From: Microcoleus sp. FACHB-61
GTDB taxonomy: Bacteria; Cyanobacteriota; Cyanobacteriia; Cyanobacteriales; Microcoleaceae
DNA: 64,000 bases
NCBI GenBank assembly: GCA_014695295.1
Contig: JACJNY010000070.1
Span: 124,001 to 188,000, forward strand
Direction: 5' to 3'
Made by a program: the position numbers and the translations under genes
In this document: positions 27,691 to 59,890 of the stretch, piece after piece
How the letters are laid out: every line of letters begins with the position of its first letter
Position numbering within the stretch: position 1 is the first letter of the stretch
The notes under the pieces: model-generated
What the model saw: the letters and a program-made list of their open reading frames with translations, nothing else
What the model was told of the DNA's origin: nothing
The model's database searches: none

Positions 27691-27921
27691 ATGAAAGTGT
27701 CTATCTCTTTGCCAGATGAGCTAGTGCGTTACATTGACGAGCGTGTAGAAAATCGCAGTCGGCTAGTTGAGCTTTTATTGCAAGCATGGCGCAAACAACA
27801 AGAACAGCAGGCAATGGTAGAAGCCTGTTTATTGCTGGATGAACTGAGCGATCAATTAACCGATGAGGATGAAGCATGGCAGCAAGCAGCGATTACCGAC
27901 TGGGAAGCATCTGGCTCGTGA
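27691..27921 (+). CDS. Ribbon-helix-helix antitoxin
   Basis: 76 aa. The N-terminal MKVSISLPDELVRYIDERV is a ribbon-helix-helix DNA-binding motif; the C-terminal half is acidic and Gln-rich, as expected for the toxin-binding tail. It overlaps the toxin gene by 46 bp, so the two are co-translated. It should bind its own promoter and neutralise the PemK/MazF-like toxin. The upstream 330 bp are a mobile element, so its native promoter may have been displaced. Confidence 0.85.
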   Translation: MKVSISLPDELVRYIDERVENRSRLVELLLQAWRKQQEQQAMVEACLLLDELSDQLTDEDEAWQQAAITDWEASGS

Positions 27922-28238
27922 ATTTCGATCCCTCAGTCGGTACAGAAATCCGCAAGACTCGACCGGCGGTAATTATTTCAGGAACTGCTTTTAATCAACG
28001 CAGTAAAGTCACAGTTCTGCCCATCACTTCTGCTGTTCCAAACGAGCATTTACGGCCCATTGTTTTGCCTGTAATTCCTTCAACTATCAATGGTCTGAGT
28101 ATCGAGAGTTTTATCGTGTGCGTCGATCCGATGACGTTTGATAAACGCAGACTGGTGCGCTGTCTTGGGCAATTGGAGTTGCACCAAATACCAGAAATTA
28201 AACAGATTTTGGCTCGATATTTAGAACTTGAAGAGTAG
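27876..28238 (+). CDS. MazF/PemK-family endoribonuclease toxin
   Basis: 120 aa with the PemK/MazF core: GSIWLVNFDPSVGTEIRKTRPAVI (read here as the GxIwxvxfdP...Grp region), KVTVLPITSA, and SFIVCVDPMTFDKRRLV. The catalytic Arg and Thr/Ser of the family (RKTRP and PITS) are present. It would cleave mRNA at short motifs when the antitoxin is degraded. The ATG chosen overlaps the antitoxin gene by 46 bp; a slightly later start is possible. Confidence 0.9.
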   Translation: MAASSDYRLGSIWLVNFDPSVGTEIRKTRPAVIISGTAFNQRSKVTVLPITSAVPNEHLRPIVLPVIPSTINGLSIESFIVCVDPMTFDKRRLVRCLGQLELHQIPEIKQILARYLELEE

Positions 28239-29322: not shown

Positions 29323-29964
29323 TTACTCCCAGTAATTTTCCCAATCATCCTTAAAAGCTTGCTGCAATCTCTGCATATACGCATCAGTCTTAATCTTCAC
29401 CATCCACAGATTATTAGCATTGCGGCCTCCCTTGCACACAACACCTTCATCCACACCGTATTTCCCCTTGCGAAGATCATCCATAAACTTGCCCGTCAGT
29501 TTGCCGCGATAAATCACTCGCGCAATATTGAATTTACCAAAATCCTGAATAAATCGATCGGGAACAACCATACCGCCCTCAGTTTCCACATCAAAAAGCA
29601 CCAGTTTTTTGCGATCGTCCTTTTTGTGCCTTCCCGCAAACGAGTTAGCACCAAAAAACTCTGTAAACACAGTAATTTCAGGGCAGTGATACTGTTCGTT
29701 CTCTCGAAATATAGACTCTAAGGGACTAGCAAAGTCTCTTTTAAATATTTCCGGTGCTTCTTCTAAACCTGGATGTGCAGCATTAAATTCTGCAATTCCC
29801 ATCTCATCCAAATCAAATCTACTGCGGCGCGTACCAAAAGCATACCAACCAAGTTCAACTTCCCAAACCCAATGCAAATTAGTGCCATCGTACTTCTCAA
29901 AAGCTACACATTGTTCGTTAGGGCAATTTTTACTATCTGGAATTTTGGGATAGGCAAGAAGCAT
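29323..29964 (-). CDS. RNA ligase-like nucleotidyltransferase
   Basis: 213 aa carrying the covalent nucleotidyltransferase motifs: motif I EKYDGTN (Lys24 would take AMP), motif III-like ITVFTEFFG, motif IV DEGVVCKGG and motif V WMVKIKT. No OB-fold or zinc domain is attached, so it resembles the compact T4 Rnl2-type RNA ligase core. Family knowledge predicts ATP-dependent sealing of RNA ends. It is a lone gene next to decayed sequence, with no Rtc or Pnkp/Hen1 partner in view. Phage or plasmid origin is possible. Confidence 0.8.
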   Translation of the reverse strand: MLLAYPKIPDSKNCPNEQCVAFEKYDGTNLHWVWEVELGWYAFGTRRSRFDLDEMGIAEFNAAHPGLEEAPEIFKRDFASPLESIFRENEQYHCPEITVFTEFFGANSFAGRHKKDDRKKLVLFDVETEGGMVVPDRFIQDFGKFNIARVIYRGKLTGKFMDDLRKGKYGVDEGVVCKGGRNANNLWMVKIKTDAYMQRLQQAFKDDWENYWE

Positions 29965-30158: not shown

Positions 30159-32576
30159 TCAAGTAGCCTCTACGAACAAACCGCTTCGAGCAAACTCCTC
30201 TTCTTCAGGAGTAAAGACTGGATCTTCATCCACAAGGTCAGGGTCAAAGTAGTATGTCTCTTGTAGGAATTGCCCCGTGACGATCGCCTCGTCCAACTCC
30301 TGGATGTAATCTTGGGCAACTAAGCATACCTCCTTGATTCCTTCCTCATCCCTCTTATCCAACAGCTTATGCAATATTGCTCTCACCCCTGTCAGTCGTG
30401 CTGCGGGCTTCAGGATACCGTAGAGGCGGTACATCCGATCGGTGGCAATGCTGATTTGTTTGAGGGCTTTGGCTTGTGCTAGCTCAGACTCAATGCTGGG
30501 CCAATAACGGGTGGTGTAGAATGCTTCCTCATCCTTTTGATACCACTCCTCGGATCGCCCAATTGATGAGGAGACAGTGTTGTGCAACTTCCAGAAGAAT
30601 AAGCGCATAGAAGGGCCATCTACTACGGTGGACAGCTTTGCCTCCATTGATACCTCAAAGCTATTCAGACGCGGGTCGCGCCCAAGCACGAGGTACTCCA
30701 CAGGGTAAATTTCCACCTCCTTATTCTGCACGACGTAGGCGTTGAGGTGGTGGCGGCAGTAGGGGCAGGGATACATACTGGCAAACAGGTTGAAGAAGTG
30801 CTTGAAGATGGCCACCAGAGTTTTTTGGTGTTCTGGGGTCTTGGTAGAGACTATCTCAGCCGTAGTGTGCAAGAAACGCCACACCGCAGGGCCAATATAG
30901 TAAGGGAAGCTGACCCGCATTTGTGAATTCTTTACTTCAGGGCGATCGATATACACATCGATGAACGCCACATATTGCGAGAGTTCGCCAGACTCGCGCC
31001 CAGACTCTAAGCGTTCGCGCCGTTTCTGTATCCCATTGAGGTAGTGGTGCGTCAAGCGCCATGCCTGTTGAAGCATCAGCTTCTGTTTTGGAGCGCATTG
31101 GGGAAAGCCTTCTGCAACATCCGCCCCATAGCGCCCAAATTCCCCTGACGTTTTAGTCGCTTCGTACCACTGGTTTAAAGCCACTTCGTCAGGCACCGTG
31201 TTGAAGGGAATGTCTGCTGCGGTAATGACGCTGAAGGCAGCCAGCAACTTCGGCATAAAGTCTTCATACCAATATGCTACTGGCATCATCGCACCATCTA
31301 TTTCCTCTGATGCCTCCGAGAGGATGACGCGGTTCCACTTCTTCAGGTACTCCTTGGGATCTCCCTCGGATGGGGCTGGTGGCGCTGCCATGTTCTCACT
31401 CAGCTCCAGGTTTCGCAGTCGGTTGAGTTCGTTGATGGCAAGCACACCTTCGGCAATGTCACGCAAGTTGACACTATCCTTTTTGATGGTCATTGCCAAC
31501 TCGACTGCCGCCCCAAACTTCTCCTTGCCGGTGGCAGACTTATCCCGCGCCTCCAACATGGCTTGTTCTTGGGCCAACATTTCAGGAGTTTTTTCTATGG
31601 TTTTCCAGTTCTTGATGCGATGCTCTAGTCGGGCATATTCATCTTCGACCGATTTAACTACTGCATCCAGTAGAGGGTTGCACGCCGGCTCTACTACACC
31701 CAATCCTTTATAAAGCGCGATCGCACTCCTGACAAATCGCACAAAATCAGCAATTCTGTATGGCAAGTCTCTCACGCACAGGTGAGTCTCGTGGTTGGCA
31801 CAGAAACTCTCGCGGAAGCTGCGGTAGGCTGCTCCCTGGATCAGACGAAATAAACCAATCTGCATCTCCAAGCGGGATGTACCGCGCTTCTTCTCAGCTT
31901 GTGGGTGTTGGGCGAGTAGTTCTTTTAGCCGCGCTATTTCTCGATTGCAAGCGGTAGGTGGTTCTTGTAGATCTTCTAGATTAGGTTCAATAGTGGCAGA
32001 AGCTGCCTCGTTGGCAGCAGTGGCTATACTTTCGAGCGCAGCGGCTGTACTATCTGAAATCTCGGCTGTCTGTGTACTGACAACCGGAACCGGCGAGTCT
32101 CGATCTCCTGTTGTGATCTCTGGCTCATCGGGTACGAGTGTGCAGAATTCCTCAAAGTCAATTAAGGCATTGCCGTCATGGTCTGCCTCTTTGATAATCT
32201 CATCGAGCTCTGGCTCTGTCAGCCCAAACGGGCTCATCACATCCTGCAGCTCGTTTTTACTGATTTGACCGGTACCGTTTTCATCAAATACACTAAATGA
32301 CATTTTGAGACGACTCTGGCGATCGCCTTGCTGGGACACCATCAGCATTTTGAATTCCTCAAAATCGATACTGCCAGACTTGTCTAAGTCCACTTCCTCG
32401 ATCATGTCGCGCAGCTCGGTTTCGTTAGGACTCTGGCCTAGCGATCGCATCACTTGACCGAGTTCTTCTGATGAAATAGCACCGCTCCCGTCCGCGTCCA
32501 ATACTTTGAACACTTCCCATAACTTTGCCTCCTCTTCTTCAGTCATGGCTTTTTTTTCAAACTCCACAGAGGTCAT
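30159..32576 (-). CDS. Calmodulin-like EF-hand protein fused to an Erv/ALR-like sulfhydryl oxidase domain
   Basis: 805 aa from the ATG at 32576 (GGGAGA nine bases upstream; the TTG at 32591 is less likely). Residues about 15-150 hold four EF hands in two pairs, calmodulin-like in spacing and wording. The loops start DADGSGAIS, DLDKSGSID, DENGTGQIS and DHDGNALID, and ELGQVMRSLGQSP follows the first. A helical middle region of about 370 residues is not recognised. Near 570-690 there is an Erv1/ALR pattern: GPAVWRFLHT, YPCPYCRHHL with the CxxC centre, and FFWKLHNTV. No signal peptide or membrane segment is evident. The predicted activity is Ca2+-regulated disulfide formation; this is inference. 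Such a fusion is very unusual for a bacterium. Confidence 0.82.
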   Translation of the reverse strand: MTSVEFEKKAMTEEEEAKLWEVFKVLDADGSGAISSEELGQVMRSLGQSPNETELRDMIEEVDLDKSGSIDFEEFKMLMVSQQGDRQSRLKMSFSVFDENGTGQISKNELQDVMSPFGLTEPELDEIIKEADHDGNALIDFEEFCTLVPDEPEITTGDRDSPVPVVSTQTAEISDSTAAALESIATAANEAASATIEPNLEDLQEPPTACNREIARLKELLAQHPQAEKKRGTSRLEMQIGLFRLIQGAAYRSFRESFCANHETHLCVRDLPYRIADFVRFVRSAIALYKGLGVVEPACNPLLDAVVKSVEDEYARLEHRIKNWKTIEKTPEMLAQEQAMLEARDKSATGKEKFGAAVELAMTIKKDSVNLRDIAEGVLAINELNRLRNLELSENMAAPPAPSEGDPKEYLKKWNRVILSEASEEIDGAMMPVAYWYEDFMPKLLAAFSVITAADIPFNTVPDEVALNQWYEATKTSGEFGRYGADVAEGFPQCAPKQKLMLQQAWRLTHHYLNGIQKRRERLESGRESGELSQYVAFIDVYIDRPEVKNSQMRVSFPYYIGPAVWRFLHTTAEIVSTKTPEHQKTLVAIFKHFFNLFASMYPCPYCRHHLNAYVVQNKEVEIYPVEYLVLGRDPRLNSFEVSMEAKLSTVVDGPSMRLFFWKLHNTVSSSIGRSEEWYQKDEEAFYTTRYWPSIESELAQAKALKQISIATDRMYRLYGILKPAARLTGVRAILHKLLDKRDEEGIKEVCLVAQDYIQELDEAIVTGQFLQETYYFDPDLVDEDPVFTPEEEEFARSGLFVEAT

Positions 32577-33237: not shown

Positions 33238-34515
33238 TTAAAAATCCCTCAGTTGAGCAGTTTGAACGGGAACTTCTTTAATCTCGGAACCTCGGCGCAC
33301 CTTCAGTTCCAGAATTTGACCGATTTGGCTGTTTTCCACCAAATTTTGCAACTGTTCGGGTTCAGTCACTGCCTCGCCCTCAATTTGAACGATGACATCC
33401 CCCTTGCGAATCCCTGCTTCCTCAGCAGGCGTATTTGGCACAACTCGCATCACTAACACCCCTTTCACTTCCGGCACAATCAAAGGAGCGTTGGGGTCAG
33501 AATTATTCTCTCTGGCCATTTCAGGAGTCAAAGCAATCATCTGAATCCCCAAAAACGGATGGCTGACTTTTTCTCCCTTGGCTAACTGCGCGTAGATGGC
33601 CTTGGCTTTGTCGATCGGAATCGCAAACCCAATACCCATTGCATCAGCTCGAATCGCCGTGTTGATGCCAATTACTTCTCCTCTGCTGTTTAACAGGGGG
33701 CCGCCGGAATTGCCGGGATTGATGGCGGCGTCGGTTTGAATGAAATCGAGCCGCTTGTCGGGAATGCCGACGGCTGCACTGGAGCGTTTGAGGGTGCTGA
33801 TAATGCCCAAGGTGACGGTGTTGTCAAATCCCAGGGGGTTGCCCACGGCGATCGCCCAATCTCCCACTTTCACCGCGTCGGAATCTCCCAAGGTGGCCGT
33901 CGGCAGGTTTAATTGCTTGGTATTAATTTTGACAACAGCCAAATCAGTTACTTCGTCAGTACCTTGCACTTCTCCTGGAAATGTCCTGCCGTCGTTTAAG
34001 GTGACAGTCACTCGATCGGCTTTGTCAACTACGTGAGCGTTGGTTAAAACAATCCCGCTTTTGTCAATGATGAAGCCGGAACCTTGACCGCGCAACCGTT
34101 CTTGTCTGGGGGTCATGCTGCGCAAATCTTCTCCCAAAAATCTGCGGAAGAAGGGGTCTTCCATTAACGGATCGATGTTGCGGCTGACAGTGCGCTCAGT
34201 ATCAATACGGACAACTGCCGGCCCGACTCGATCGACTGCAGCCGTTACAAAACTGCCGGTATCCGCCGGGAGTTCCCCGCCCCGCAGCGCTAACAGTTGC
34301 GGATTCGGCGGGCTGGCTGGCGAAGTCTGGAACTCTACTTTATGCACGGCTGTTTTGGCCTGTTCCCGCAAGTTGAGCGGATTTTTGCCGTCAGCGGCGG
34401 CAGCGGGTGCAGCATTTATGGCTGAAGCACTCAGGGCGATCGTCATTGCTAAAATGAGGGCGAACCAGCGAACAACGGTTCGGGGCCCGGGGCGAAAAAA
34501 CTTAAATAGTGGCAT
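33238..34515 (-). CDS. HtrA/HhoA-type periplasmic serine protease
   Basis: 425 aa. An N-terminal membrane or signal segment (about 16-42, ending in AAPAAAA) is followed by a trypsin-like domain with a full triad: His161 (TNAHVV), Asp191 (VTDLAVV) and Ser270 (NPGNSGGPL). A single PDZ domain (about 315-420) carries [16 protein letters not shown]. One PDZ and this length match the cyanobacterial HhoA/HhoB/HtrA set, but I cannot tell which paralog this is. It degrades or refolds damaged periplasmic and thylakoid-lumen proteins. Monocistronic, divergent from the repressor gene at 34718. Confidence 0.95.
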
Positions 34516-34717: not shown

Positions 34718-35071
34718 ATGATTATATCTGATACTTCTACTGACAAATCCGTACCGTCAAATTCCCACCACCATCACGACGCTGAATCAGTCCACCCTCA
34801 CCTTCACAATGAAGAATCTATGCGGCGGCTGGTCAATCGCTTGTCTCGGATTGAGGGACACGTCCGCGGCATCAAAACTATGGTGCAAGAAAACCGTCCC
34901 TGTCCCGAAGTTCTCGTGCAAGTTGCTGCGGTTCGAGGGGCGCTCGATCGCGTAGCGAGAATCATTCTCGACGAACATTTAACTGAGTGCATCGCCAGAG
35001 CAGCGAAAGAAGGCAATATTGATACCGAAATAGAAGAGTTGAAAGCGGCTTTGGATCGGTTTTTGCCTTAG
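34718..35071 (+). CDS. InrS-like Ni(II)-sensing repressor (CsoR/RcnR family)
   Basis: 117 aa, all-helical DUF156 fold. The His-rich N-terminus (residues 17-30) and metal ligands His30, Cys62, His87 and Cys91 reproduce, with a constant offset of 9, the His21/Cys53/His78/Cys82 set of Synechocystis InrS. CsoR copper sensors lack the N-terminal His and RcnR has His-Cys-His-His, so a nickel sensor is the best call. In Synechocystis InrS represses the exporter gene nrsD; no exporter is present here, and an IS1 remnant sits where a target gene could have been. Followed by its own terminator. Confidence 0.88.
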   Translation: MIISDTSTDKSVPSNSHHHHDAESVHPHLHNEESMRRLVNRLSRIEGHVRGIKTMVQENRPCPEVLVQVAAVRGALDRVARIILDEHLTECIARAAKEGNIDTEIEELKAALDRFLP

Positions 35072-55828: not shown

Positions 55829-56875
55829 TTACACAAACAGGAAACTATCAGGGGTAAACGGGCCTTGAATGACAGCAATTTGGTCAGACGTACCAGCCAA
55901 ATTGATGGAGTTACCAACAATATTGTAGTCAGAGAGACTCCCACGTAACTGAATGCGATCGATTCCCTGCTGAAAATATGCAATCGATGCAAATCCTGTT
56001 CCACTATAGTATGTCTTGGTGGCATCGCCGAGAACAAAAACATCTATACCTCGACCCCCAATCAGCATATCCGTTTCATTGCTTCCCGGTGTAGCACTCA
56101 ATGGATTTACTCCAATCAGGGTATCATTGCCGCGCAAACCTGAGAGTATATCGTTACCATCTCCTCCTACTAAATAATTGTCTTGGATGTTTCCGGTAAG
56201 GACATCTACATTGGGAGTACCTGCGACATTAACGAAATTCTCTACAGTAAAATTCCGAGTGCCGATACCGGGTAGATTGTTAACCGCCAAACGATTCTGC
56301 CACAAATCCACATTAATAGAAGCTGTGCCGCTACCTGTAGAAGCATCGATGGTATTAGTCTGTCCCAAAGGACCAATTATTTGTTCTATATTTTGCATGG
56401 TATCTGTACCGGCTGCGCCTTTATTTACAATACCTTTAGCCTCAAGGGTAATGCGGCTGCCGAGGGAAAGATAGCTAATTGTATCTGTGCCTGCTCCTCC
56501 AATTATGCTATCAGTGCCACTACTACCGAGGATGAAGTTATCTAAACTATCTCCGGTAATATTGTCGTTTCCTGCTGTGGTGCTAATACTGTTAGCTGGC
56601 GGAGGGGGTGGAGTTTGGTTTTGGGGAGGTAAAGCAGAATTCGTAAGTTGTGCGTCCTGATTTTGGGGAGGAAGATTTCCCGCTGGGCCTTGGTTTTGAG
56701 GATTCGGATTGTCGATTCCCCCCAGGTTTTGAGGAGGATTGCCCGGTGCGCCCTGGTTTTGAGGAGAATTGCCCGGTGCGCCTTGATTTTGCCCTGGAGG
56801 ATTGCCCGGTACTCCTTGATTTTGGGGAGAAGAATTGCCCGGTACATTGATTGAATTAGCAAATAGTTGTGGCAT
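55829..56875 (-). CDS. RTX (hemolysin-type calcium-binding) repeat protein
   Basis: 348 aa. The first about 95 residues are a low-complexity Pro/Asn/Gln region built of GxPGNPPQNQ-type units. After about residue 110 come RTX-type nonapeptides: NITGDSLDNFILGSSG, TDSIIGGAGTDT, LVGGDGNDILSGLRGND and MLIGGRGIDVF, which bind Ca2+ in a parallel beta-roll. No standard signal peptide, so type I secretion is likely. An ATTACA-GTTT-TGTAAT inverted repeat lies 132 bp upstream. Confidence 0.87.
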   Translation of the reverse strand: MPQLFANSINVPGNSSPQNQGVPGNPPGQNQGAPGNSPQNQGAPGNPPQNLGGIDNPNPQNQGPAGNLPPQNQDAQLTNSALPPQNQTPPPPPANSISTTAGNDNITGDSLDNFILGSSGTDSIIGGAGTDTISYLSLGSRITLEAKGIVNKGAAGTDTMQNIEQIIGPLGQTNTIDASTGSGTASINVDLWQNRLAVNNLPGIGTRNFTVENFVNVAGTPNVDVLTGNIQDNYLVGGDGNDILSGLRGNDTLIGVNPLSATPGSNETDMLIGGRGIDVFVLGDATKTYYSGTGFASIAYFQQGIDRIQLRGSLSDYNIVGNSINLAGTSDQIAVIQGPFTPDSFLFV

Positions 56876-58271: not shown

Positions 58272-59890
58272 AACTCCAATCTTTCCGCCTTCGCATTGCT
58301 TTATCATCTTCTGTTCTCGCAAGTATTGCTCTGATTGGCTTTGGTGTTGTTTCGTGGTGGTTGATTTACGATGCTAAAGTCAAGCGTCTTGATGCTGGAA
58401 TAGAAACTCAGTTAATCCACGCTACCCGCCCGCGATCGCCCGAATGGGATGCTTATACTGATTCTTTGCCATCACTTTTGGGCATGAATGGGGAAACCAC
58501 CGTCGCTTTGGTCGTGGCTCAAAAAGATGGTAATTTAATCTACAAATCGAGCCAGTGGCAAGATGGACTTGATGCGAATTCCATCTGGCGATCGTTGCCG
58601 CTACCCCCTCCCGATCCTGGCATAATAGATTTTGAATCAGAACCTCCCCCTCGACAAAATCCATTAGATCCACCACCTCCCGATCGCCTCAATTTATTTC
58701 CACCGCCCGAAACCAGACCCCCATTCGATCCACCGCCACACGATCGACCTCCACACGATCGGCCGCCACACAATCTGCCGCCATTCGATCGACCTCCACA
58801 CGATCGACCCGCATTCGATCGGGCGTCATCCGATTCACTTCAACCTCCTCAATTGCCCAAAGCTCAGCTAGCAACCCAGCGTACTAGCACTGCAATTTGG
58901 CGTGTCGGCGCGATTAATTCTGCTTATAGTCAAGCAGCCATCGCCGTTAACTTGCAAGCTATCGATGGGGAAATGGAATTGATTCGTAATATCTTTCTAA
59001 TTTCTATTCCCGTAGTGCTTTTACTGGTGGCGAGTGGAGCGTGGGTCATATCGCGGAGTATTCTGTATCCAATTGGGCGCCTCACGATGGCGATCGGGAA
59101 TGTTACCGTACAGGGGCTAGATCGGCGCGTCCCTTACGGAGCAACGGATATAGAGTTTCTAGAATTAATTTTTGTGTTCAATCAGATGTTAGAACGTCTA
59201 GAGCGAAGTTTTAAACAAGCTTCTCGTTTTAGTGGAGATGCTGCCCACGAATTAAAAACTCCGCTAGCAATTTTGCAAGGTCAACTAGAACGGGCTTTGC
59301 ATCAAGTTGAAGCTGGTTCTGAGGTGCAGCAAACGCTGAGTAATTTATTGGATCAAGTGCGCCGTTTGAATGAAATAACCCGTAAACTTCTCTTACTTTC
59401 TCTAGCCGATGCCGGACGTATGGGTTTACATTTGGTTGATGTGAATATGTCGGCTTTGCTATCGGAAATTGCCGAAGATATGGAACTGCTAGCACCGCAT
59501 TTAGATGTACAAATGGTAATTGCTCCCAATTTATATATCAAGGGCGATCGCGATTTGCTGGTGCAGGTTTTGCAAAATCTGGTTGGTAATGCGATTAAAT
59601 ATAATTTACCGAAGGGTTGGCTCAGGTTACAGGCTAACTGTCAGGGAAAAAGAGTAATTGTGAAAATTGTCAATAGTTCTCAGGATATTTCTTTTAGCGA
59701 GCGCGATCGCATTTTTGAGCGCTTCCATCGCGGTGACTCGACTCAGATCCAAAAAATAGAAGGATCGGGATTGGGGCTAAGTTTAGCAAGGGAAATCGCA
59801 CGGGCCCACGGCGGCGATATCAAACTAGATGCTGCCATACTTGGTCAAACAGCATTCACACTCAGCTTACCTGTGGGCGATCGCGATTAA
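58268..59890 (+). CDS. Sensor histidine kinase with His/Asp/Pro-repeat periplasmic domain
   Basis: 540 aa. TM1 (about 10-32), periplasmic domain to about 238, TM2 (about 239-260), HAMP, HisKA (H-box AAHELKTPLA, His327), HATPase (NLVGNAIKYN, VNSSQDI in place of DxGxG, GSGLGLSLAREI). The periplasmic domain contains a Pro-rich insert with pentapeptide repeats HDRPP, FDRPP and HNLPP (about residues 152-191), rich in His and Asp, a plausible metal-binding stretch. The G1 box VNSSQDI lacks the canonical Asp-x-Gly-x-Gly, as in some active CusS-type kinases. Partner regulator is 57588. Confidence 0.93.
   Translation: MKLQSFRLRIALSSSVLASIALIGFGVVSWWLIYDAKVKRLDAGIETQLIHATRPRSPEWDAYTDSLPSLLGMNGETTVALVVAQKDGNLIYKSSQWQDGLDANSIWRSLPLPPPDPGIIDFESEPPPRQNPLDPPPPDRLNLFPPPETRPPFDPPPHDRPPHDRPPHNLPPFDRPPHDRPAFDRASSDSLQPPQLPKAQLATQRTSTAIWRVGAINSAYSQAAIAVNLQAIDGEMELIRNIFLISIPVVLLLVASGAWVISRSILYPIGRLTMAIGNVTVQGLDRRVPYGATDIEFLELIFVFNQMLERLERSFKQASRFSGDAAHELKTPLAILQGQLERALHQVEAGSEVQQTLSNLLDQVRRLNEITRKLLLLSLADAGRMGLHLVDVNMSALLSEIAEDMELLAPHLDVQMVIAPNLYIKGDRDLLVQVLQNLVGNAIKYNLPKGWLRLQANCQGKRVIVKIVNSSQDISFSERDRIFERFHRGDSTQIQKIEGSGLGLSLAREIARAHGGDIKLDAAILGQTAFTLSLPVGDRD
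58722..58841 (+). repeat. Eight 15-bp units encoding HDRPP-type pentapeptides
   Basis: Within the kinase gene, consecutive 15-bp units from 58722, each built around CGATCG/CACACGATCGACCTC, encode FDPPP, HDRPP, HDRPP, HNLPP, FDRPP, HDRPA, FDRAS and SDSLQ. The HIP1-like palindrome inside each unit suggests slippage-driven expansion. Confidence 0.85.

Follow-up and report, generated by a model that had tools for sequence, protein, structure and literature searches.

Calmodulin is a Ca2+ sensor; Ca2+ signals occur in cyanobacteria as well, and to our knowledge few Ca2+ effectors are known in these organisms. CSE and CcbP are described as cyanobacterial Ca2+ effectors (PMC10574481). Among sulfhydryl oxidases, yeast Erv1 is described as using C30-C33 as its shuttle pair and C159-C176 as its structural pair (PMC7318334), and QSOX, built from thioredoxin (Trx), pseudo-Erv and Erv domains, is an established example of an Erv domain joined to other modules (PMC3616962). 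Erv1/Alr has been recorded in Nostocales, Oscillatoriophycideae and some Alphaproteobacteria, in a text whose accessible part does not use the term "EF-hand" (PMC10598087). In titles and abstract openings of the open-licence literature, we found no description of a fusion of an Erv or other sulfhydryl oxidase to EF-hands, and other work may exist.

The window, i.e. the whole stretch of 64,000 nucleotides of Microcoleus sp. FACHB-61 DNA analysed here, encodes a protein in which these two elements are combined. The open reading frame has the coordinates given in the original prediction, but lies on the minus strand, and is organized as follows.

30159-32576, minus strand: whole fusion gene, 805 amino acids plus stop (ATG at 32576, stop TGA at 30161-30159)
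32127-32549, minus strand: calmodulin-like module with four EF-hands, residues 10-150 (Pfam and PDB calmodulin matches; 47.9% identity to calmodulin over 142 columns)
31905-32126, minus strand: variable linker, residues 151-224 (mostly low model confidence, with pLDDT below 50 at 151-208)
30945-31904, minus strand: conserved, mostly helical middle region, residues 225-544 (helical in both structure models)
30477-30944, minus strand: Erv1/ALR sulfhydryl-oxidase domain, residues 545-700 (Evr1_Alr of Pfam matched at E up to 10 by all 46 aligned rows; PDB ERV structures)
30162-30476, minus strand: C-terminal helices, residues 701-805 (conserved in the family; long helices in the model)

A Shine-Dalgarno-like GGGAG (32589-32585) lies 8 bases 5' of ATG 32576, the likely start codon judging from the sequence. 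The gene stands alone, with more than 600 bases between it and the end, at 33238, of the upstream HtrA-like protease gene. Divergent from this protease gene is a gene for a metal-sensitive transcriptional repressor with a His-rich N-terminus (34718-35071, plus strand; Pfam Trns_repr_metal, 7.8e-28). Downstream of the fusion gene, an open reading frame at 29323-29964 (minus strand) weakly resembles RNA ligases (Pfam 3.3e-5, short of the cut-off); its homologue lies upstream, not downstream, of the fusion gene at loci L022 and L066. The window also holds a PemK/MazF-like toxin of a type II toxin-antitoxin system (27876-28238, plus strand; Pfam 1.3e-22) and tandem repeats at 56668-56845 and 58716-58821, with units of 30-33 and 15/30 bases, respectively. 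Searches with the fusion protein gave no NCBIfam model above its cut-off and a best E value of 0.1 in PHROGs.

The fusion is not confined to the window. A scan of genome contigs recovered 58 loci, mainly in filamentous cyanobacteria, with others in unicellular cyanobacteria and in six proteobacterial metagenome-assembled genomes (MAGs; 44-54% identity). As the whole architecture recurs in many genomes, the combination of EF-hands with an Erv domain goes beyond chance, and the presence of both in one protein, as originally proposed, is real. For comparison, 42 rows were aligned (A1: the window protein, three other loci and 38 of the 58 scan loci, the 20 omitted being mostly near copies or partial); a second alignment without the EF part (A4) held 46 rows, namely 40 of those in A1 plus L064, L071 and L091-L094. 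An EF-less profile matched 18 of 386 cyanobacterial genomes, two short remnants and one partial copy with a stop among them. Matches were present in 14 of 29 genomes of the window's genus, two of them split over contigs, and in 11 of 34 genomes of a genus in f36, a cyanobacterial family with small genomes (2-3 Mb) whose members are, by inference, picocyanobacteria. Outside these groups the family is very rare: in the classes of one alphaproteobacterial and one Burkholderiales-labelled carrier, one of 385 and one of 229 genomes matched, in each case the carrier itself. The six proteobacterial scan loci all stem from MAGs and could be binning errors. A single plasmid among 72,556 records carries the fusion gene, that of Gemmobacter aquarius, a complete record, where it is annotated "ERV1/ALR-related protein". 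The EF-Erv architecture is thus common to cyanobacteria and proteobacteria, with the N-terminal region kept even where it is degenerate. A search for PF04777 in other architectures returned nine matches in 244 cyanobacterial genomes and one in 289 alphaproteobacterial genomes, all belonging to the fusion family; this search was not exhaustive, since the copies of the small-genome cyanobacteria were not among its matches.

In a tree midpoint-rooted for drawing only, f36 and Gemmobacter group together on one side (100/97), on long branches for which the program warned of false joins. The proteobacterial MAG rows L071, L073 and L074 fall among cyanobacterial ones, and the tree requires two changes of the label Pseudomonadota. 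Transfer between phyla, in either direction, would be consistent with this tree. Several copies appear decayed: in G213 (L095/L112) a shortened frame lacks the middle region and passes from the EF module straight to Erv sequence; short remnants of the gene occur in G015 (L128-L129), G173 (L096) and G414 (L097); and at L025 the frame stops after 567 residues though the match continues. Such copies fit repeated loss and a patchy distribution, with assembly error as an alternative.

The N-terminal region had been predicted to contain four calmodulin-type EF-hands, and database matches bear this out. Pfam assigned EF-hand_7 (6.6e-30) and EF-hand_1, the latter with four stretches, and phmmer against the PDB aligned residues ~10-150 with calmodulins (E ~1e-35 to 1e-33), the top row being a calmodulin-calcineurin fusion (2.2e-45), among the best 60 of 635 matches. 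The sequence words on which the prediction drew (ELGQVMRSLGQSP, GPAVWRFLHT, YPCPYCRHHL and LHNTV) are all present in the translation; ELGQVMRSLGQSP, which had been taken for central-linker wording, is actually an N-lobe stretch following EF loop 1, where the aligned calmodulin reads ELGTVMRSLGQNP. We counted a loop as canonical by a rule of our own (D at position 1, D/N/S at 3, D/N/S/T/G at 5, E/D at 12) across 47 rows, i.e. A1 plus L091-L094 and L114.

32463-32498, minus strand: EF loop 1, residues 27-38, DADGSGAISSEE; ligands canonical in 38 of 47 rows
32355-32390, minus strand: EF loop 2, residues 63-74, DLDKSGSIDFEE; ligands canonical in 36 of 47 rows
32250-32285, minus strand: EF loop 3, residues 98-109, DENGTGQISKNE; ligands canonical in 43 of 47 rows
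32148-32183, minus strand: EF loop 4, residues 132-143, DHDGNALIDFEE; ligands canonical in 42 of 47 rows

All four loops of the window protein are canonical by this rule. The same holds for 35 of the 47 rows, so loss of the Ca2+ ligands in most homologues was not seen; two rows retain three canonical loops, four retain two, five retain one and one retains none. Degeneration is seen in divergent members. The 12 rows with losses are six proteobacterial ones (L061, L072-L075 and L114), L091-L094 of f36, L056 and L078. Identity to calmodulin amounts to 45-53% in 34 of 47 rows and to 19-24% in L091-L094 (in L091 over 69 residues only). In line with the proposed rarity of such tandems in bacteria, the top nine calmodulin matches among 244 cyanobacterial genomes (49-54% identity) all fell at loci of the fusion family; in the same genomes, the next match by score showed 35% identity over 139 residues, while G040 contains a two-EF stretch with 42% over 72 residues. 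A frame of 834 residues (L139, G190:C3:765163-765579) carries an EF tandem 35% identical to calmodulin. The closeness of the module to calmodulin fits the eukaryotic origin that had been suggested for it.

Comparisons with four relatives gave pairwise dN/dS values of 0.24, 0.62, 0.29 and 0.09 for the EF module, 0.50, 0.29, 0.26 and 0.16 for the middle region, 0.22, 0.24, 0.34 and 0.09 for the Erv domain and 0.67, 1.64, 0.49 and 0.57 for the linker, all being point values of which those for the closest pairs rest on few changes. Residues 151-208 showed the highest dN of five regions in all four pairs. At the level of these coding-sequence comparisons, the EF module evolves under constraint. This constraint, together with the four calmodulin-like Ca2+ sites in 35 of 47 rows and the role of calmodulin itself as a sensor, argues against a constitutive thiol oxidase that lacks Ca2+ switching and uses its EF module as a structural or docking arm, with Ca2+ merely stabilizing the fold. 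Such an arm would account for the persistence of the N-terminal region in divergent members even when degenerate, and for the Erv core being kept alongside zero to two canonical loops in L091-L094 and in the proteobacterial L061, L072-L075 and L114; on balance, we regard a non-switching enzyme as unlikely, if a serious competitor. As members with degenerate Ca2+ loops keep the Erv domain, Ca2+ binding cannot be required for core activity, and the loss of Ca2+ ligands from an intact Erv core makes Ca2+ likelier to be a regulator than a part of catalysis. From the sequences, we consider the chances about even that this cyanobacterial protein acts as a soluble thiol oxidase and senses Ca2+ through a module of its own.

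The enzymatic half of this assignment depends on the Erv domain, whose proposed presence in the same polypeptide as the EF-hands is upheld by a Pfam Evr1_Alr match above the cut-off (residues 564-620; 2.5e-10; 41 bits vs a cut-off of 27.6). A profile of residues 225-805 matched 11 PDB chains at E up to 5, nine of them ERV/ALR chains (best 2.4e-5), and the signature residues W566, H570, C604, C607, H665, N666, V668 and R674 are invariant in all 46 rows of A4. The following elements were located within the domain.

30756-30767, minus strand: active-site motif C604-P-Y-C607; both Cys in 46 of 46 rows
30627-30716, minus strand: insert of ~30 residues, residues 621-650, between ERV helix 3 and helix 4 (Pfam score gain and deletion scan)
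30573-30587, minus strand: LHNTV, residues 664-668, the ERV helix-4 His-Asn motif, aligned with HNTV of 2hj3

C607 and H665 are 58 residues apart in the window protein vs 29 in the ERV structures 2hj3 and 4e0h. Upon removal of residues 621-650, the Pfam score rose from 41 to 55.7 bits, with positions 2-82 of the 93 in the profile then covered, and LHNTV came to lie opposite HNTV of 2hj3, an Erv1p chain, placing the helix-4 motif collinear with known ERVs. At E up to 1, the insert-less Erv region matched 16 PDB sequences, each of which bears the name of an ERV/ALR protein or of a FAD-linked sulfhydryl oxidase. As a control, 257 deletions of 20-40 residues were scored against a small, rough ERV profile made from three stretches: the three best removed 30 residues starting at 619-625 (38.4-38.8 bits vs 32.6 for the intact stretch), those starting at 550-604 scored lower than the intact stretch, and those from ~640 on changed the score little because the intact alignment ends before helix 4. 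As far as its sequence goes, the Erv domain is complete, with an insert, and would be expected to bind FAD.

Structure prediction gave a less clear picture. The full model reached a pLDDT of 70.5 and a pTM of 0.66, a model without the EF part a pTM of 0.81, and in both pLDDT fell below 50 around the CxxC motif. The predicted Erv helices (563-577, 581-601, 607-616 and 654-675) follow each other in the expected order, yet the 35 matches that Foldseek listed for the EF-less model up to E 10 (best match E 3.0) include no ERV; together with the low confidence at the CxxC, this absence from the model comparisons is the main result against the Erv reading. It also speaks for another explanation, namely that an unrelated helical protein matches the motifs by chance, as does the local and modest match of the intact protein (41 bits). 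This explanation, which we hold to be highly improbable, is for practical purposes refuted by the Evr1_Alr match in all 46 rows, by the collinear 55.7-bit match after insert removal and by the deletion scan, in which the insert position was the best of 257. Foldseek with the full model against the PDB found calmodulins or calmodulin-based chains among the best 50 of 864 rows. Its sole viral match below 0.001 was the Yasminevirus protein A0A5K0UAY3, named "Histidine kinase" (E 4.6e-15; 828 columns; TM-score 0.45 to the query); a nudivirus sulfhydryl oxidase appeared at E 1.2. The long structural alignment of A0A5K0UAY3 hints that a giant virus may have a relative with the entire architecture, but identity is 19% and the rmsd 22.3. 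Four viral-contig pattern scans and a phage collection yielded no viral or phage relatives of the family.

The middle region (window 30930-31910) matched no Pfam family at E up to 10. It includes blocks whose conservation is on par with that of the Erv domain (mean identity 0.92 for residues 245-264, 0.89 for 425-444 and 0.91 for 505-524), and it carries the motifs FRLIQGAAYR, YWYEDFMPKLL and YLNGxQKRRER as well as invariant charged residues. A QSOX-like internal duplication, with the middle region as a pseudo-Erv domain, was considered and rejected: profile comparison of two middle stretches gave no similarity to the Erv part, although these profiles are shallow and a distant fold may escape them.

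The original prediction had suggested counting conserved cysteines. C604 and C607 are present in 46 of 46 rows, in agreement with an Erv active site; a second universal pair is missing. C299 is a Cys in 42 of 46 rows and Ala in four, L091-L094 being without it, as is Gemmobacter (read from the sequence). Of 42 rows, 37 have C494, 37 have C751 and 31 have C145; as C494 and C751 are absent, along with C299, from L092-L094, no second pair is universal. The family alignments also contain no second closely spaced conserved Cys pair that might act as a shuttle disulfide. A long-range second disulfide in the main group is possible from the alignment, given C299 in 42 of 42 rows and C494 and C751 in 37 of 42. 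The shuttle position varies among ERVs, and the missing pair therefore speaks against classical Erv1 mechanics, not against membership of the domain family. No 19-residue hydropathy mean above 1.55, and hence no sign of a membrane helix, was seen in 42 rows, some divergent ones being cut at the match start and thus scanned without their true N-terminus. As the N-terminus of the window protein is, in addition, charged, the protein should be cytosolic, judging from hydropathy. A net oxidase in the reducing cytosol would be unexpected, which is a point against the thiol-oxidase reading.

Gene neighbourhoods named no partner. When the neighbours of loci L021-L078 were clustered, the largest of the 22 largest clusters covered nine loci, all from Nostoc-type strains, and those spanning unrelated strains were generic families, TPR or ABC proteins for example, at differing places. 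Six of ten further regions and the Gemmobacter plasmid, compared by eye, showed no neighbour common outside close strains. As neighbours are shared by close strains only, barring generic families, they point to no partner in an operon. In Gemmobacter, the fusion gene lies directly 3' of a sugar-phosphate nucleotidyltransferase gene, preceded on the same strand by DJ-1/PfpI, epimerase and GlgX genes. Directly after the Gemmobacter copy, L114:9797-10270 encodes a small secreted-looking protein with a weak Dirigent-like match (7.7e-5, below cut-off).

The lack of universal shuttle cysteines, a membrane helix or a conserved substrate gene nearby, and the large conserved middle region with its invariant charged residues, could also be understood if the Erv domain were a redox or flavin sensor and not an oxidase; its CxxC would then sense the thiol state, with the helical region as output and Ca2+ as a second input. 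Against this stand the invariance of the compared ERV signature residues in 46 of 46 rows and the fact that no known output domain was recognized, and we consider a sensor quite improbable. For a Ca2+-regulated thiol oxidase, we envisage that the Erv domain would bind FAD and accept two electrons from a dithiol directly at C604-C607, from where they might pass to O2, yielding H2O2, or to another acceptor. Ca2+ on the EF module could alter its contact with the helical or Erv region, opening or closing access to the CxxC. Given that the family has no shuttle disulfide in common, a particular thiol partner, perhaps resembling thioredoxin, probably docks to the middle region.

A more far-reaching proposal, which we put forward tentatively and with some doubt, is that the fusion is a bacterial converter of Ca2+ into redox signals, in which a calmodulin-type sensor and a cytosolic flavin thiol oxidase would turn a Ca2+ rise into protein disulfides and H2O2 in one step. 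If true, it would be a soluble analogue of the EF-hand NADPH oxidases of eukaryotes and would provide cyanobacteria with a cytosolic pathway of disulfide formation. A near-calmodulin sensor joined to an oxidative enzyme domain would tie the thiol redox state of a bacterium to Ca2+ in a way that can be tested.

Set against known systems, the fusion protein shares four EF-hands with calmodulin, at the identities given above, but its inter-lobe and EF3-EF4 stretches are each two residues shorter than in 4il1 calmodulin and its EF module is joined to an enzyme domain. Cyanobacterial CSE is likewise an EF-hand Ca2+ sensor, described as almost confined to filamentous cyanobacteria; it is set apart by having two EF-hands, and the accessible part of its description mentions no enzyme domain (PMC10574481). 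With QSOX, as far as described in PMC3616962, it has in common a large size and an Erv domain at the C-terminal end, preceded by a helix-rich region. Unlike QSOX, it carries EF-hands and no thioredoxin domain (no Pfam match in the whole protein at E up to 0.1), and, as noted above, two stretches of its middle region did not resemble the Erv part in profile comparisons. The Erv1/ALR proteins (PF04777: yeast ERV1, Erv2, Erv1p of 2hj3 and mammalian ALR) share with it the collinear motifs GxxxW..LHT, YPCxxC and HNxV. In contrast to these, the fusion protein is bacterial, has no visible membrane helix and no family-wide second disulfide, accommodates ~30 additional residues between helices 3 and 4 and adds EF-hands and a 320-residue helical region; the enzyme family is known, this domain architecture within it new.
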